DNA from: Balneolales bacterium
Lineage (GTDB): Bacteria; Bacteroidota; Rhodothermia; Balneolales; Natronogracilivirgulaceae
Assembly: GCA_007132975.1 (NCBI GenBank)
Contig: SLNO01000042.1
Coordinates: 44,137 to 108,136 of the forward strand
Direction of reading: 5' to 3'
Length of the DNA stretch: 64,000 bases
Positions 23,446-31,852 of the stretch are shown one piece after another. Under the pieces are notes generated by a model. The model worked only from the letters and a program-made list of their open reading frames with translations, made no database searches and was not told where the DNA came from. The translations under genes and the position numbers were made by a program. How positions within the stretch are numbered: the first letter of the stretch is position 1; every line of letters starts with the position of its first letter.

Positions 23446-23476
23446 TTGCATCGTGAAAAAAACTTGATTACATTTG
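23446..23476 (+). promoter_or_regulatory. Candidate Bacteroidota-type promoter of the trp operon (TTG-N20-TACATTTG)
   Basis: TTG at 23446-23448 and TACATTTG at 23469-23476 match the TTTG / TAnnTTTG boxes at canonical spacing. Confidence 0.55.
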
Positions 23477-23481
23477 CGCTC

Positions 23482-23535
23482 ATGTTTAACAGAAACACAC
23501 ATATTTCGAATTGGTGGTGGTGGCCTTTCTGCTGA
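23482..23535 (+). CDS. trpL: trp leader peptide MFNRNTHISNWWWWPFC
   Basis: 17-codon ORF with four consecutive TGG codons (23512-23523), 143 nt upstream of trpE and followed by an antiterminator/terminator arrangement. Confidence 0.88.
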   Translation: MFNRNTHISNWWWWPFC

Positions 23536-23622
23536 AAGCGGATAGTTACCCGTGTGTGTACTGTATAGACAACCGAGTTTTCTTCAACCCGCTTTCAGAT
23601 ATCTGGATGCGGGTTTTTTTTT
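23525..23622 (+). promoter_or_regulatory. trp operon transcription attenuator (ribosome-mediated)
   Basis: 1:2 hairpin CTTTC(23525-29)/GAAAG(23534-38); antiterminator CTGAAAGCGG(23532-41)/CCGCTTTCAG(23589-98), 10 bp perfect; terminator AACCCGC(23586-92)/GCGGGTT(23609-15). Confidence 0.88.
23586..23622 (+). terminator. Attenuator terminator of trp operon
   Basis: AACCCGC-TTTCAGATATCTGGAT-GCGGGTT plus run of nine T; inner CAG/CTG arms extend the hairpin. Confidence 0.88.
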
Positions 23623-23677: not shown

Positions 23678-25222
23678 ATGAACTCAGAAACCTTTAAACA
23701 ACTGGCGAAACGCTACACGGCCATACCCGTGTATCGGGTGATGATGGCCGATACGGTCACGCCCGTGTCGCTGTTCCTTAAAGTAAGGGAGCAGGGGCAT
23801 TACCCATTTCTGCTTGAATCGGTGGAAGGTGGCGAACAACTGGCCAGATATTCATTTATCGGCCGGAATCCTTACCAGGTCCTTCGTTTTCAAGGTGGCA
23901 GGGTTACCCTGGAGACACTCCGCAAAAATGGTCATAATCGTTCACGCGTCGACGATTACCAGGAAAATGCGAGCGGCTCCATGAATATCCCTGAAGAGGC
24001 CGCGCAGGGAGAGCAGGAGCTTGACGATTCCTATTTTGATGCGCTCCGCCGCCTGTGCCACAAATATGAAGAGCCGGAGATACCTGATTTGCCGCGTTTG
24101 ACAGGAGGAGCAGTCGGTTTTTCAGCCTACGATACCATACGGCAGGTAGAACACCTCCCGGACGTCCCGCCGGACGACCTGAACCTGCCTGAAGCCCTGT
24201 GGGGATTTTACGACGAGGTTTTTGCTATCGACCATGTCAAGCACCGGGTTGTGCTCATTCATACCGTTTTTACAGATACTGACCAGGACCATGACATGCA
24301 GTTTCGGAATGCCATGGTTTGCCTGGACGATATGGAGAGGATAATGAAGCAACCAGTTCCAGATGGTGACGGATACCGCCGCACCTCTGAGCGGCTTGAG
24401 AGCAATGTTACACGCGAGGAGTTTCACAAAAACGTGGATAAAGCCCGGGAATACATCCACGCAGGGGATATTTTCCAGGTTGTTCTTTCTCAAAGGTTTG
24501 AGAGCCGGTTTTCCGGCGACCGTTTCATGCTCTACCGGGCCCTGCGCATGGTAAACCCGTCACCCTATCTTTTCTACCTGGATTTTGACGACTTTGCCCT
24601 GGTTGGCTCCTCGCCGGAAGTGCTGGTCCAGGTGCAGGATGGTACCGTCCGTCTGCTTCCTATTGCCGGTACGCGTCCGCGCGGCGGCACCACTGAGGAA
24701 GACCTGGCGCTGGAAAAGGACCTCATGTCGGATCCCAAGGAGCTGGCCGAGCATATTATGCTGGTAGATCTTGGAAGGAACGACCTGTCGCGCGTTTGCC
24801 GTCCCAATTCAGTCAAGGTCACACGCGACCGGGTTGTTGACCGTTACTCCCATGTGATGCACATCGTTTCCGATGTAAGTGGACGTCTGGCTGATGGAAT
24901 GACCGCTGTGGATGCTCTCCAGAACTGCTTTCCGGCCGGCACGGTATCCGGCGCCCCCAAAGTGCGTGCCATGGAGATCATCGATGAGATGGAGGTAACC
25001 AAGCGGGGGCCATATGCCGGTGCGGTGGGATACTTTGACTTTTCCGGCAACATGGACACCTGTATTGCCATCCGCACCATGATAGTCACCGGAGACACCA
25101 TCTACATCCAGGCGGGTGCCGGCATTGTGGCCGACAGCAACCCCGACCTTGAATACGACGAAACGGTTAACAAGGCACGGGCACTGGTCGAAGCGCTTGG
25201 TATCGCACTTCAGCTGGAGTGA
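23678..25222 (+). CDS. trpE: Anthranilate synthase component I
   Basis: LLES motif (YPFLLESVEGGEQLARYSFIGRNPY), FQVVLSQRFE, LVDLGRNDLSRV, ALQNCFPAGTVSGAPKVRAMEII. Confidence 0.97.
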   Translation: MNSETFKQLAKRYTAIPVYRVMMADTVTPVSLFLKVREQGHYPFLLESVEGGEQLARYSFIGRNPYQVLRFQGGRVTLETLRKNGHNRSRVDDYQENASGSMNIPEEAAQGEQELDDSYFDALRRLCHKYEEPEIPDLPRLTGGAVGFSAYDTIRQVEHLPDVPPDDLNLPEALWGFYDEVFAIDHVKHRVVLIHTVFTDTDQDHDMQFRNAMVCLDDMERIMKQPVPDGDGYRRTSERLESNVTREEFHKNVDKAREYIHAGDIFQVVLSQRFESRFSGDRFMLYRALRMVNPSPYLFYLDFDDFALVGSSPEVLVQVQDGTVRLLPIAGTRPRGGTTEEDLALEKDLMSDPKELAEHIMLVDLGRNDLSRVCRPNSVKVTRDRVVDRYSHVMHIVSDVSGRLADGMTAVDALQNCFPAGTVSGAPKVRAMEIIDEMEVTKRGPYAGAVGYFDFSGNMDTCIAIRTMIVTGDTIYIQAGAGIVADSNPDLEYDETVNKARALVEALGIALQLE

Positions 25223-25346: not shown

Positions 25347-26378
25347 ATGATGAGCAAGCAGAAGCACATTGAAGGGCAGGCATCAACCCGAACGAAAACC
25401 ATTTTATCGGGCATTCAGCCATCGGGCAGGCTGCATCTTGGAAACTATTTCGGCGCCATTCGGCAACACCTTGACTTCCAGGAAAAGGGGGATGCGTTCT
25501 ATTTCATAGCAAACTACCATTCTTTGACTTCCGTCCAGGACGGTGAACAGCTGCGGCAGTACACCCTTGATGTGGCGTTGGACTATCTGGCCTTGGGCAT
25601 GGATCCTGAAAAGTGCACTTTCTTCGCCCAAAGTGATGTCCCGCAGGTTCTGGAACTCGCATGGATACTTGGAACGCTTACGCCTGTCAGCATGATGGAA
25701 AAGGGGGTATCCTACAAGGACAAGGTGGCACAGGGACTTCAACCCAACATCGGCCTGTTCACCTATCCTGTGCTGCAAGCGGCGGACATCCTGATCTATC
25801 ACTCGGATATCGTGCCGGTGGGGGCGGACCAGAAACAAAACATTGAAATCTCTCGAGACCTTGCTGCCCGATTCAACAGAATTTATGGAGGGGAGTACCT
25901 GCGCATCCCCGAACCCTTCATCGTGGAGTCGGTAGCTACGGTTCCCGGCACTGATGGACGCAAGATGAGCAAGTCCTACGGCAATACCATCGATATTTTT
26001 GACAGTGGAAAGACTTTGAAAAAGAAAGTAATGGCTGTCGTTACGGATTCGACGCCCTTGGAGGAACCCAAGGATCCCGACACCTGTAACATCTACGCAC
26101 TTATCCGCCTCTTTGCAGCAAAAGAGAAGCAAATGGAGGTCCGGGAGAAATACAAAGCGGGTGGATTTGGCTACGGGCACGCAAAAAAGGAACTTCTGAT
26201 GCTTGTTGAGGATTATTTCGAAGAAGCCAGAGCGCGAAGAGAGGAGCTGGTCCGCAGTCCGGACACGGTTCGGGAACTGCTTCGCGACGGCGGCAGGAAA
26301 GCCCGTGAACGCGCCGAGCAGGTCATGGGGCCTGTTCGCGAAGCAACCGGGATCATTCGTCATTATTCAACGCAGTAA
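25347..26378 (+). CDS. trpS: Tryptophanyl-tRNA synthetase
   Basis: SGIQPSGRLHLGNYFGA (HIGH-like), GTDGRKMSKSYGNTI (KMSKS). ORF opens at TTG 25305; ATG 25347 or 25350 likelier. Confidence 0.96.
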   Translation: MMSKQKHIEGQASTRTKTILSGIQPSGRLHLGNYFGAIRQHLDFQEKGDAFYFIANYHSLTSVQDGEQLRQYTLDVALDYLALGMDPEKCTFFAQSDVPQVLELAWILGTLTPVSMMEKGVSYKDKVAQGLQPNIGLFTYPVLQAADILIYHSDIVPVGADQKQNIEISRDLAARFNRIYGGEYLRIPEPFIVESVATVPGTDGRKMSKSYGNTIDIFDSGKTLKKKVMAVVTDSTPLEEPKDPDTCNIYALIRLFAAKEKQMEVREKYKAGGFGYGHAKKELLMLVEDYFEEARARREELVRSPDTVRELLRDGGRKARERAEQVMGPVREATGIIRHYSTQ

Positions 26379-26398: not shown

Positions 26399-26977
26399 AT
26401 GGTGCTGATCATCGACAACTACGACTCATTCACCTACAACCTGGTTCATTTGGTTGCCAGGCACTCGGAAGTGTATCAGGTAATCCGAAATGACAAGATT
26501 ACCGTCGATGAGGTGAGAAGGCTTCAGCCCGAAAAAATACTGATATCACCCGGGCCAGGCAGACCGGAGGATGCGGGGATTACCGTTCCCCTGGTGTCGG
26601 AACTCGGCAGCGAGGTTTCCATACTTGGTGTCTGTCTTGGCCATCAGGCGATTGGGCATGCATTCGGAGCCAGCGTCGTTTCTGCACCATCCCTGATGCA
26701 TGGCAAAACATCGTGCATTCTGCATGACGGACGTACAATATACAAGGACGTGCCACAATCATTTACCGCAACAAGATATCATTCTCTTGTACTTGAGGAG
26801 TCGACCATCCCTGAAGAATTTGAGGTGACATCCAGAACAGAAGATGGTGTTGTCATGGGGATACGGCACAAGGCTTACCCTCTAGAAGGGATCCAGTTTC
26901 ATCCTGAAAGCATACTCACTTTAGAAGGTCCCCGGCTTATCCAGAATTGGATGGAGCGGGATTTCGTGAACAAATAA
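26399..26977 (+). CDS. trpG: Anthranilate synthase component II (glutamine amidotransferase)
   Basis: VLIIDNYDSFTYNLVH, ISPGPGRPEDAG, ILGVCLGHQAIGHAFG, GIQFHPESILT. Confidence 0.97.
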   Translation: MVLIIDNYDSFTYNLVHLVARHSEVYQVIRNDKITVDEVRRLQPEKILISPGPGRPEDAGITVPLVSELGSEVSILGVCLGHQAIGHAFGASVVSAPSLMHGKTSCILHDGRTIYKDVPQSFTATRYHSLVLEESTIPEEFEVTSRTEDGVVMGIRHKAYPLEGIQFHPESILTLEGPRLIQNWMERDFVNK

Positions 26978-26984
26978 CGTGCAT

Positions 26985-28022
26985 ATGAGTGACTTCACTT
27001 ACATTTTACAAAAAATCACAGCTGGCGATGATCTTCTGGAAGAAGAAGCAGGTTTTGCCTTGCAGGAAATCATAAGCGGCAGTGTCAATCCGTCTCGCAT
27101 CGCAGCATTCCTGTTTGGCATGAGCTGCAAAGGTGAAACCGTCACTGAGCTGACGGCATTTGTCAATGTCATGCGCAGAGCGGCGGTACCGGTGATAGCG
27201 GAGACGGATTCGGCTATTGACCTTTGTGGCACGGGTGGAGATCATTCTGGCACCTTCAACATATCAACCGCGGCCATGTTCGTGGCTGCAGGAGCGGATG
27301 TTCCGGTCCTGAAGCACGGCAATGCCGGTGTTTCAAGCAGGAGCGGCAGCTTTGACGTGCTTCGCTGCCTTGGAGTCCGGCCTGATTTGGAGAAAGACCA
27401 GGTTGAGACATGTTTTCGCCAAACCGGCATGGCATTCATGTTCGCACCGCTATTTCATCCCGCAATGGCTCGCGTGATGCCGGTGCGCAAGGAACTCGGA
27501 CTGCGTACCTTTTTCAATATAATGGGCCCCATGCTGAATCCAGCCGGTGTTCGTCGCCAAATGGTAGGCGCCTTCAGCAGGGAAACAGCTGTGAATATCA
27601 TTCGTATTCTCAGCAATCTGGAAACGGAATTTGCTTATACCGTCCATGCGGAAGATGGTCTGGATGAGCTCTCCACCACGGCTCCATCTCATGTTTTTCA
27701 ATTGAAGGATGGTAACGTTTCCAATGGACGCATTTTTGACGCCGGCGTGTTCGGATTGTCCGCTTCCACCCGCAAAGAGCTCATCGGCGGATCTCCGGAA
27801 GACAACGCCGCGATTATCCGGGCCGTACTTGATGACAAAGCGACCCGGGCCCAAAGGGAAATCGTACTTCTGAATGCCGCTTTTGCCATTCACGCTTCCG
27901 GACTCCAGGATGATATCCAGCAAGCTTTTTATGCCGCCGAGGAAAGTCTGGAATCTGGCAGCGCCAGGGCAGCTCTTGAGAATTTTGCAACCTGTACTTC
28001 CGATTTACATAATAAATCATGA
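26985..28022 (+). CDS. trpD: Anthranilate phosphoribosyltransferase
   Basis: DLCGTGGDHSGTFNISTAAMFVAAGADVPVLKHGNAGVSSRSGSFDVLRCLG. Confidence 0.97.
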   Translation: MSDFTYILQKITAGDDLLEEEAGFALQEIISGSVNPSRIAAFLFGMSCKGETVTELTAFVNVMRRAAVPVIAETDSAIDLCGTGGDHSGTFNISTAAMFVAAGADVPVLKHGNAGVSSRSGSFDVLRCLGVRPDLEKDQVETCFRQTGMAFMFAPLFHPAMARVMPVRKELGLRTFFNIMGPMLNPAGVRRQMVGAFSRETAVNIIRILSNLETEFAYTVHAEDGLDELSTTAPSHVFQLKDGNVSNGRIFDAGVFGLSASTRKELIGGSPEDNAAIIRAVLDDKATRAQREIVLLNAAFAIHASGLQDDIQQAFYAAEESLESGSARAALENFATCTSDLHNKS

Positions 28023-28068
28023 TGATTGAGTTCCTGCAACTACTTTATTTCTGCAGATTCAAGAATGA

Positions 28069-28908
28069 ATGGATTTGCACCATTATGTCTTAGAAGTAAT
28101 GAACAACAAAGAAACCGTTTTGGATAAAATTGTCGAGCAGACCAGGCTTGATAACACTGCGCGACAAAGATCCGTGTCTACCAGTGATTTTCACTCTTTT
28201 GAGGCCTGGCATCGCCAACGGAGGGACTTCACCGAGGCTTTGCGCAAGTCCGGCAGCGTTTCTGTCATTGCGGAAATAAAAAAGGCTTCACCATCCAAAG
28301 GAATCATAAGAGAAGATTTTGATCCGGTGGCAATCGCCCAATCCTACGAGCGTCATGGCGCCTCCGCTCTTTCCGTACTTACGGACCAGCCCTTTTTTCA
28401 AGGATCTCTTGCATACATGGATGCGGTATCCTCTTCATCCGCCATTCCGGTACTGAGAAAAGACTTCATCATAGATCCCTATCAGGTATATGAAGCTCGT
28501 GCCTATGGCGCCGACGCGTTGCTTCTGATTGTTCGGATACTAAGTGACCGTCAGCTCGGTGAGCTCCATGCCTGTGCCGCTGAAGTGGGTTTGCAAGTGC
28601 TCACCGAATGCTACGATCAGCATGACTGGGACCGTCTGGACTTTGACACGGTCAAGATCGCAGGTGTGAACAATCGCGATCTCGACACGTTCAAGGTGGA
28701 CCTTCATCACGGTGTTTCCTTGCTCTGTCAAGCACCTGATGGTGTAGTAAGGGTATCTGAGAGTGGTATTTCAAAACCTGACGACATCAAATATCTGCAG
28801 GAACATGACATCCACAGTGCGCTTGTTGGGGAGTCGCTTATGCGAGCTGAAGACCCTGGGATTGCATTGTCTGCACTTACAAACAGGTTCATAACAAACA
28901 CCGAATAG
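28069..28908 (+). CDS. trpC: Indole-3-glycerol phosphate synthase
   Basis: VIAEIKKASPSKGIIREDFDPVAIAQSYERHGASALSVLTD, VLRKDFIIDPYQVYEARAYGADALLLI, GVNNRDLDTFKVD, SESGI. Confidence 0.97.
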   Translation: MDLHHYVLEVMNNKETVLDKIVEQTRLDNTARQRSVSTSDFHSFEAWHRQRRDFTEALRKSGSVSVIAEIKKASPSKGIIREDFDPVAIAQSYERHGASALSVLTDQPFFQGSLAYMDAVSSSSAIPVLRKDFIIDPYQVYEARAYGADALLLIVRILSDRQLGELHACAAEVGLQVLTECYDQHDWDRLDFDTVKIAGVNNRDLDTFKVDLHHGVSLLCQAPDGVVRVSESGISKPDDIKYLQEHDIHSALVGESLMRAEDPGIALSALTNRFITNTE

Positions 28909-28953
28909 TGAATAAGAATTTTGTAATATCTAAATACAGAATACAATAGTATA

Positions 28954-29628
28954 ATGTCATCCACTGCCCCCGTTTCATCTAATCGAATATTTCCTAAGCT
29001 GAAGATATGTGGCATAACCACGCTTGAAGATGCCAGGTTTGTCGCAGGCGCCTTAGCTGATTACATAGGATTCGTATTCGCAAGTGGCAGTCCTCGCCTC
29101 ATATCCGCAAGGGATGCCGCGGAAATCAGCGGGTGGATCCATGGACCTGAGAAAGTCGGCGTTTTTGTGAACCAGCCGGCAGATGAGATCAATGCTACTG
29201 TTGAAAGAGTGGGACTGGATCTCGTGCAGCTTCATGGGGAGGAATCCACCACTGATGCAGCGCTGATCAAAGCCCCCATAATTAAAGCGTTTCGGATCAG
29301 AGAGGAGGCGGACCTTCCTGCAATCCGTGAACAGATGCTCGAGTGGGAATCCATAGCCAGATACTATCTTTTTGATAGTCGCAATGACAAAATGCATGGT
29401 GGAACCGGTGCGACCTGGAACTGGAGATTTCTTAAGGATCTGGAACCGGAAAAACCGTTTTTCGTAGCCGGAGGCATTTCACATCAGAATGCTGGTGAAG
29501 CAATCCAGAATACCGCACCGTTCGCGATGGACCTGTCAAGCAGCCTGGAATCTGAACCCGGAATCAAGGATTTCGATAAAATGACCGACTTTTTTGAGAT
29601 CTGGAATGAGCTCAGGGATTCCTTCTGA
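28954..29628 (+). CDS. trpF: Phosphoribosylanthranilate isomerase
   Basis: KICGITTLEDARFVAGALADYIGFVFASGSPRLIS, VGVFVNQP, VQLHGEES, FVAGGISHQNAGEAI. Confidence 0.95.
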   Translation: MSSTAPVSSNRIFPKLKICGITTLEDARFVAGALADYIGFVFASGSPRLISARDAAEISGWIHGPEKVGVFVNQPADEINATVERVGLDLVQLHGEESTTDAALIKAPIIKAFRIREEADLPAIREQMLEWESIARYYLFDSRNDKMHGGTGATWNWRFLKDLEPEKPFFVAGGISHQNAGEAIQNTAPFAMDLSSSLESEPGIKDFDKMTDFFEIWNELRDSF

Positions 29629-29677
29629 CGTGCTTCCTTATGGAAACGTCATGTAAATCGGTGTCTATGAATCAAAT

Positions 29678-30925
29678 TTGTTACCCATAATTACAATCAG
29701 CAATATGAGTTCTTCCACAAAACAGATGAACCAACACAGCACTGTTCCCGATGCAAGGGGCTTTTTTGGCAGGTTCGGGGGCAGGTATGTTCCCGAAATA
29801 TTGATACCTGCGCTCCATGAGCTCGAAAAAGCATTCCGGGAGTGCCAGCAGGACCAGGCATTTCAGAATGAGTTCGAAACGCTTTTGCGCGAATACGTCG
29901 GAAGGGAGACACCGCTTACATACGCGGGACGCTTGAGCGAGCATTATGGTAAAGCCAGGATTTACCTCAAGCGCGAAGATCTCTGTCATACCGGGGCTCA
30001 CAAGATAAACAATGCGATCGGACAGGTGCTGCTGGCTCGCAGAATGGGAAAAACGCGTATCATCGCAGAAACGGGTGCTGGCCAGCACGGTGTGGCAACG
30101 GCGACGGTTTGCGCCTTTTTTGGGTTGAAATGCATCATCTACATGGGGTCCGAAGACATTTCGAGGCAGCGTCTCAATGTTGACAGGATGCGCCTGCTTG
30201 GTGCCGAGGTGCGACCTGTGGAATCCGGTGCCAAAACCCTCAGCAATGCCATCAACGAGGCGATCCGGGACTGGGTCAGCAATGTTGAGGATACTTTCTA
30301 TATAATAGGATCTGCCGTAGGACCGCATCCATATCCGATGATGGTTCGCGATTTCCAGTCGGTTATCGGAAGGGAAACCATCGACCAGTCCCTCGAACAG
30401 GAGGGACGCCTTCCTGACTACGTCCTGGCCTGTGTAGGCGGCGGCTCCAATGCCATAGGGATGTTCCACCCATTTCTTGAGCACGAGGAAGTACAACTGC
30501 TCGGTGTCGAGGCTGCCGGAGAAGGCGTGAATACGGAACGCCATGCCGCAACTCTTTCTGGAGGGGAGCCTGGGATTCTGCACGGGTCTCTTAGTTACCT
30601 GCTTCAAACATCTCATGGACAAATAGCAGAAGCGCATTCTGTAAGTGCGGGTCTCGATTATCCCGGAGTTGGGCCGGAACATTCTTTCCTGCGAGACTCC
30701 AGAAGAGTAACGTACGCCGCTGTAACAGATCAGCATGCCCTGGAAGGAGTGCGACTGCTATCATCCATGGAAGGTATCATACCGGCACTGGAGACAGCTC
30801 ATGCCATCGCATACCTGGACGAACTCATGCCGGAGACGAACCCGGATGAATTTGTGGTCGTCAACTGCTCTGGCCGCGGCGATAAAGACATGGAAACCAT
30901 ATCCAAACACTTGAAATGTCCATGA
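29678..30925 (+). CDS. trpB: Tryptophan synthase beta chain
   Basis: [63 protein letters not shown] at 29705 likelier than the upstream ORF start. C-terminal codons HLKCP* lie in repeat copy D. Confidence 0.97.
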
Positions 30926-31018
30926 TCGGTCATCTTCCGGTCACACAGGAACATGATTAAAAAAGTCATGTGGACATTCTACATGACGATATGAATCAAA
31001 AATTATAAACACTTGAAA
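30905..31018. repeat. Interspersed structured repeat, copy D (inverted relative to A-C) at the trpB/trpA junction
   Basis: Reverse complement tttcaagtgtttataatttttgattcatatcgtcatgtagaatgtccacatgac...tgtgtgaccggaagatgaccgatcatggacatttcaagtgttt aligns to copy B; bounded by perfect 12-bp direct repeats AAACACTTGAAA at 30905-30916 and 31007-31018. Confidence 0.88.
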
Positions 31019-31024
31019 CAACAC

Positions 31025-31852
31025 ATGACCAGTATAAAAGGTAGAATCAGCCGGGTATTCCGGAGCAGATCTGACGGTGATAAAATCATGAGCCTGTTCC
31101 TGACTGCCGGTTTCCCAGAGCCGGCCGCCACGGTGGAACTGGTGCGGAAGCTGGAGTCGTCCGGCGCAGATATCCTGGAACTCGGAATGCCCTTCAGCGA
31201 CCCCCTGGCCGACGGCCCCACCATCCAGTATGCCAGCAAGGTAGCCCTCGATCAGGGAGTAAACCTGGATGCCATATTTGGGATGGTTCGCGAGATACGC
31301 CGTGAGTCAGAAATACCTATTGTCCTGATGGGGTACATAAATCCGGTTTTAAGGTATGGATTGGAAGCTTTTTTCCTCAAAGCAAGTGAATCGGGGGTGG
31401 ATGGTATCATCATTCCGGACGTCCCGCCAGGGGAAATGCCGGAACTGGACGGGCTGTGTCAGCAGCACAACATCGACCCGATATATCTCGTGGCTCCGAA
31501 CACGTCTGATGAGCGCATGCGTGAGGTCGACCAGGCCAGCAGCGGTTTTGTCTATTGCGTTTCGGTTGCCGGAGTGACTGGTGCCAGAAGCGGTGATGAA
31601 GTAAGCCGATCGGTGGCAAAGTTCATCGACAGGGTACGGAAGAACGTCACACGCAACCCGGTGCTTGTCGGTTTTGGCATAAGATCGCATGCAGATGCCC
31701 TTGCTGTATCGGCGCGCGCAGATGGATTCATTGTGGGGAGCGCCCTGATTGACTACATTCGGAGTGTCTATCCCGAACCGGACTGGATGCAGCGCACCGG
31801 TATTTTTGTTCGTGAGCTGAAATATGGCCGGGACAGCAGCATCAAAGTGTGA
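31025..31852 (+). CDS. trpA: Tryptophan synthase alpha chain
   Basis: SLFLTAGFPEPAATVELVRKLESSGADILELGMPFSDPLADGPTIQ. ORF opens at TTG 31013; ATG at 31025. Confidence 0.97.
   Translation: MTSIKGRISRVFRSRSDGDKIMSLFLTAGFPEPAATVELVRKLESSGADILELGMPFSDPLADGPTIQYASKVALDQGVNLDAIFGMVREIRRESEIPIVLMGYINPVLRYGLEAFFLKASESGVDGIIIPDVPPGEMPELDGLCQQHNIDPIYLVAPNTSDERMREVDQASSGFVYCVSVAGVTGARSGDEVSRSVAKFIDRVRKNVTRNPVLVGFGIRSHADALAVSARADGFIVGSALIDYIRSVYPEPDWMQRTGIFVRELKYGRDSSIKV

Follow-up and report, generated by a model that had tools for sequence, protein, structure and literature searches.

What kind of control is exerted by the short region that precedes the trp operon of a Balneolales bacterium (GTDB lineage Bacteroidota; Rhodothermia; Balneolales)? 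The operon lies in a stretch of 64,000 nucleotides of contig SLNO01000042.1, in the following called the window, where its genes are ordered trpE-trpS-trpG-trpD-trpC-trpF-trpB-trpA, with a leader open reading frame (ORF), an antiterminator and a terminator ending in nine T residues (T9) upstream. All features described for the window are on the forward strand, and positions are counted from the first base of the window. Very probably, the region is a classical attenuator of the trpL kind, by which transcription of the trp operon is controlled through the ribosome. The components of such an attenuator were all found: an ORF with a run of Trp codons, an intrinsic terminator, an antiterminator, a 1:2 protector and, by folding, masking at the stop codon. 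The analysis shows the anatomy of the leader, its conservation, the covariation of its pairings and, by comparison among genomes, the position of its promoter.

Anatomy and conservation of the trpE leader

The leader ORF (23482-23535) encodes MFNRNTHISNWWWWPFC, from an ATG at 23482 to a TGA stop codon at 23533-23535; it was read from the sequence, and leader ORFs with Trp runs are found at the matching place in relatives. Codons 11 to 14 are four tandem TGG codons (23512-23523), preceded by exactly ten codons, as is the Trp run in 41 of 69 distinct leaders. The corresponding 12-mer, TGGTGGTGGTGG, occurs only three times in the 3.24-Mb assembly. Segment 2 (CTGAAAGCGG, 23532-23541), the 5' arm of the antiterminator, is the exact complement of segment 3 (CCGCTTTCAG, 23589-23598), which is used both as the 3' arm of the antiterminator and as part of the 5' arm of the terminator. 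The intrinsic terminator (23586-23622), recognized by sequence and folding, is composed of a hairpin (23586-23615), with AACCCGC (23586-23592) opposite GCGGGTT (23609-23615), and of the T run (23614-23622); hairpins flanked by U runs are likewise placed in relatives. The terminator contains an internal mismatch and is for this reason missed by a generic terminator scan. An original prediction, made from the sequence alone, had placed the ORF, the Trp run, the stop codon, both arms, the terminator and the T run at these same positions. The leader RNA is 4.3 standard deviations more stable than its dinucleotide shuffles (z -4.3), none of 200 shuffles being equally stable.

The region upstream of trpE was read in 96 loci of the class. 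A covariance model of the near group was dropped for the study of distribution, as it also scores ordinary terminators elsewhere (25-47 bits in the examples inspected); its weak matches were therefore left unused and the upstream region was read instead. The closest named relatives by trpE are Balneolales metagenome-assembled genomes (83-73% identity), which confirms the earlier attribution of the sequence to Balneolota, in GTDB a class within Bacteroidota. A short ORF with Trp codons precedes trpE in all 43 sampled Balneolales, and a Trp-rich leader with a terminator is present in 16 of 26 other genomes of the class, including Roseithermus (L053/L129). Beyond the class, within the same GTDB phylum, Trp-rich leaders were found in 22 of 40 sampled genomes, and relatives whose trpE shares as little as about 35% local identity still have the arrangement upstream of this gene. 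The 69 distinct leaders contain three Trp codons in 59 cases, two in 7 and four in 3. The UGG runs are retained while nearly all other leader codons vary among relatives, and the 11 nearest relatives retain ORF, pairings and terminator. Trp runs, terminator and antiterminator are thus kept across Balneolota and beyond, and the pairings covary; the proposal of classical trpL-type attenuation, against which lack of conservation of Trp codons or pairings in close relatives would have spoken, is supported.

Variants of the leader peptide were also recorded. One of the Balneolales leaders (L007) has TGG TGC TGG (W-C-W) in place of the usual three Trp codons, its structure being otherwise retained. 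At the loci outside the class (L159-L198) leaders are often longer, with 12-20 codons before the Trp run, and runs may be interrupted, e.g. WAWFWF and WYWSYW. A leader ORF with three Trp codons (WWW), MMQTALLNNWWWQIQEEGFVRC, is also found upstream of trpE in Syntrophaceae bacterium UBA4767 (L111).

Covariation of the pairings

Pairings were evaluated by a swap test, in which the pairing energy of a leader's own segments is compared with that of segments exchanged between genomes. Such alignment-free tests were used because, for some members of the near group, MAFFT columns place the outer stem two bases off. Across 53 Balneolales, pairing between the 5' half of the ORF and the sequence that follows the Trp codons amounts to -13.2 kcal/mol for a leader's own segments vs -9.4 kcal/mol for swapped ones (z -10.9); for segments 2 and 3 the values are -16.5 vs -13.2 kcal/mol (z -8.2). 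In both cases none of 5000 permutations was as good. The antiterminator pairing 2:3 also covaries in the other class members (z -6.0).

In the window, the first of these pairings corresponds to an outer 1:2 stem of the minimum free energy (MFE) structure, whose 5' arm, segment 1, is found in the ORF upstream of the Trp codons (23483-23502, region of AACAGAAACACACAT), and whose 3' arm lies past the stop codon (23552-23571, region of GTGTGTGTACTGT). Within the 11 nearest genomes the outer stem covaries by itself (z -3.7), two pairs showing compensatory changes. Segment 2 is held in an inner hairpin of the MFE structure, TCTGC(T)/(A)GCGGA (23528-23542), with the stop codon in the loop region; TCTGC/GCGGA pairs in 100% of the near group, where it is invariant, and the region covaries in other Balneolales (z -5.0).

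The original prediction had assigned the sequestering of segment 2 to a 1:2 hairpin formed by CTTTC (23525-23529) and GAAAG (23534-23538). Both motifs are present in the sequence, and their pairing is a neighbouring register of the TCTGC/GCGGA hairpin, overlapping it by a few bases. As a protector it was rejected, being not kept by relatives: over the 11 nearest ones it pairs in only 80% of cells, with no covariation. On comparative grounds, the conserved protector is a larger 1:2 domain, whose outer stem links the first half of the ORF with a region past the stop codon and encloses the Trp codons and the TCTGC/GCGGA hairpin.

Outer stem and antiterminator share no bases. The order along the RNA is segment 1, segment 2, 3' arm of the outer stem, segment 3, so that the two pairings cross and are mutually exclusive by topology. 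In the E. coli scheme a single segment 2 is used in both pairings, which differs from the crossing pairings found here.

Predicted transcript start and proposed operation of the switch

A promoter is predicted, from sequence and comparison, immediately upstream of the leader ORF (23446-23476): a -35 box TTGCAT (23446-23451) is separated by a 17-nt spacer from a -10 box TACATT(TG) (23469-23476). The promoter, TTGCAT-N17-TACATTTG, ends five bases 5' of the ATG, hence transcription should begin at about the leader AUG (predicted start, about 23480-23483). The full pattern of promoter plus ATG has its sole match in the assembly at this site. A TAnnTT box ending 6-10 nt before the leader start is present in 68 of the 69 leaders, vs 1.6 expected from the upstream background, where the leader start was partly chosen with the -10 box in mind; without that choice, the box is found in 65 of 70 leaders when the most upstream ATG is taken, and in 51 of 53 when a single ATG is possible. 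TTG with a 17-nt spacer precedes the box in 59 of the 68 leaders.

By comparative promoter position, little or no sequence probably precedes the start codon in the leader mRNA, which would make it leaderless or almost leaderless. An ordinary short 5' untranslated region (UTR), with everything else as described, is rather unlikely. The spacing between -10 box and AUG would allow 5' UTRs of 0 to about 4 nt, and outside the class, where the box lies up to 15 nt from the start, 5' UTRs up to about 9 nt are likely; an upstream promoter may also have escaped recognition. However, TTG-N17-TAnnTT stands at a fixed place in nearly all leaders, and there is no room for Shine-Dalgarno motifs, tetramers of this kind being seen in 3 of 69 leaders. 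The probable leaderless start had no place in the original prediction, nor had the inclusion of trpS under the same attenuator, discussed below, which is likewise probable.

Leaderless leader transcripts are described elsewhere. The S. meliloti rnTrpL transcript starts at the trpL ATG (PMC7298713), and TrpL1 of Streptomyces lividans is leaderless (PMC8079986). In Bacteroides, 5' UTRs shorter than 10 nt make up only about 3.7% (PMC7366714). For a group in which leaderless mRNAs are considered rare, the promoter position predicts leaderless translation of the peptide that acts as sensor. Taken with Streptomyces and S. meliloti, the present case suggests that leaderless starts may suit attenuators, because a ribosome can load once the 5' end emerges.

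The behaviour of the leader was followed by folding at the stage when RNA polymerase is just past segment 3, with the bases covered by the ribosome hidden and the ribosome footprint assumed to end 15 nt from the first base of the P site. Of the 69 leaders, 68 include the antiterminator in their MFE structure if the ribosome is stalled on the first Trp codon, and none does so if it has reached the stop codon. This agrees with the proposal that a terminating ribosome masks segment 2, while a stalled one sets it free.

We infer from these data ribosome stalling, termination and the response to tryptophan, as well as the start of the transcript, in the following scheme. RNA polymerase would start no more than about 2 nt from the leader AUG, giving a message with hardly any 5' UTR or none, on which ribosomes would load. 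With ample charged tRNA-Trp, the ribosome would pass the four UGG codons to the UGA, mask segment 2 and then leave; the outer 1:2 stem and the inner hairpin would occupy segment 2, the 3:4 terminator would form, and transcription would stop about 55 nt before trpE. With uncharged tRNA-Trp, the ribosome would stall on the UGG run and cover segment 1, leaving segment 2 free to pair with segment 3 as the antiterminator, and trpE-trpS-trpGDCFBA would be transcribed.

Several results weigh against this scheme. Ten of the 26 other genomes of the class are without a Trp-codon leader, and marine Balneola (L047, L048 and L049) have no Trp-codon leader ORF upstream of trpE, while the terminator is kept. 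The 2:3 pairing is nearly invariant in the 11 nearest genomes, hence uninformative there. The effect of stalling is only partly specific, since in 77% of cases a shuffled middle also attains 5 bp with segment 3. At the segment-3 stage, 32 of 69 leaders form 2:3 when untranslated, so that the protector does not prevail in all of them. The terminator is favoured over the antiterminator at equilibrium in 64 of 69 leaders, even with a stalled ribosome; the switch must therefore be kinetic, as in known attenuators, and the antiterminator of the stalled leader, absent in equilibrium folding, was obtained only at the co-transcriptional stage.

In the marine Balneola the attenuator seems to have lost its sensor, a natural loss by comparison with the other leaders, and decay does occur in the clade. 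This gives some ground to the view that the window leader is a decaying relic, or that it controls translation rather than transcription. Such a view is very unlikely to hold, as the leader of the window is intact, with its T9 terminator, ORF, pairings and terminator are retained in the 11 nearest relatives, and the structure lies well upstream of the trpE start. Also very unlikely is a decorative ORF in an attenuator whose sensor is a small-molecule or protein one (riboswitch, TRAP, T-box). A terminator and competing structures are present as in such systems, but neither a T-box nor any other Rfam family reaches the gathering threshold in the window, TRAP was not found in 61 genomes of the class, and the constancy of UGG runs amid changing codons is explained only by a codon-reading sensor.

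The trpS gene and relation to known systems

Downstream of the attenuator, trpE, anthranilate synthase component I (23678-25222; TIGR00564, 561.8 bits, above cut-off), is followed by trpS, tryptophan--tRNA ligase (25347-26378; TIGR00233, 287 bits, above cut-off), the sole copy over the family cut-off in the assembly. The remainder of the operon, trpG, trpD, trpC, trpF, trpB and trpA in this order (26399-31852), was assigned by NCBIfam matches, all above the curated cut-off with the exception of trpF, assigned by best match. In those Balneolota and Rhodothermales loci that extend far enough, trpS comes after trpE, and in all 41 class genomes checked no other gene exceeds the trpS cut-off; in family f7 trpS is located elsewhere. 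An internal promoter of the same type before trpS was sought in the window and six relatives, and none was found. Since trpS is in the operon and no such promoter precedes it, the attenuator probably governs the very enzyme by which its signal is generated. With the only trpS in the operon, a shortage of tryptophanyl-tRNA synthetase activity should also raise trpS; the conserved trpE-trpS order thus predicts synthetase autoregulation via tRNA charging. Like TRAP, TrpR was not found in the 61 class genomes, where control families were detected.

As a tentative proposal, with a chance somewhat short of even, the leaderless trp attenuator may be of ancient origin in those branches of Bacteroidota (sensu GTDB) that are not Bacteroidia, and may be the main control of tryptophan supply there, with feedback on its own sensor via trpS. 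In that case, the level of charged tRNA-Trp would set the level of its charging enzyme, the single trpS being the second gene of the attenuated operon.

The leader resembles the enterobacterial trp attenuator of E. coli (RF00513) in its tandem Trp codons about ten codons in, in the 1:2, 2:3 and 3:4 segments, in a stop codon that lets the finishing ribosome mask segment 2, and in the U-run terminator before trpE. It aligns to Rfam RF00513 Trp_leader over its full length with 27.5 bits (E 0.0016 in 501 bases), below the gathering score of 41 bits, a cut-off reached in none of 101 class genomes. Unlike in E. coli, segment 1 precedes the Trp codons and pairs with a 3' arm located past segment 2, the start is probably leaderless, trpS is in the operon and TrpR was not found.

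In S. meliloti, an unrelated lineage, attenuation by trpL/rnTrpL is the only control of trpE(G) described, and only trpE(G) is attenuated, whereas here the full operon with trpS would be; rnTrpL RNA and its peptide have functions in trans (PMC7298713). It is pure speculation, by analogy, that the leader RNA ended at the terminator, probably a leaderless mini-mRNA of some 140 nt, could have functions in trans like those of rnTrpL/peTrpL. Streptomyces is similar in the leaderless TrpL1 (MFAHSTRNWWWTAHPAAH) and in having both trpE and trpS under Trp leaders, trpL1-trpE and trpL2-trpS (PMC8079986, PMC1262725); two attenuators are used there on monocistronic genes, whereas here the whole operon, trpE and trpS included, lies behind a single one. 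The promoter motif TAnnTTTG is of the Bacteroidota type described in Bacteroides thetaiotaomicron, where small ORFs resembling leader peptides were also noted, which are unvalidated and, unlike the present leader, not tied to trp (PMC7366714).

According to Naville and Gautheret (2010), who added Bacillus hisS leaders, Proteobacteria and Actinobacteria were the only groups for which leader-peptide systems had been shown (PMC2965389). No report of trp attenuators in Balneolota or Rhodothermota was found in the open literature searched, and two subscription papers (Merino 2008; Lopatovskaya 2010) may hold earlier predictions. The mechanism is classical; the lineage, and the joint occurrence of a probable leaderless start, an extended 1:2 domain and a trpS gene within the operon, appear unreported in that literature. 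Comparative genomics here documents a classical trp attenuator in lineages where neither TrpR nor TRAP was detected, spread over a class of Bacteroidota (sensu GTDB) and outside it.

Leaders directly upstream of hisG, ilvB or leuA were not found in the genome of the window. A second attenuator-like leader of this genome (L209:663-779; G000:C64:33062-33178) precedes a gene resembling that of sulfite reductase and contains the ORF MMCCMPGIADGGGLSVT as well as a T9 terminator. It matches no Rfam family at the gathering threshold. The peptide pattern MCCM...GGGL and the terminator are kept in three genomes of the same genus (L223, L224 and L225), and the leader is a candidate cysteine-responsive attenuator.
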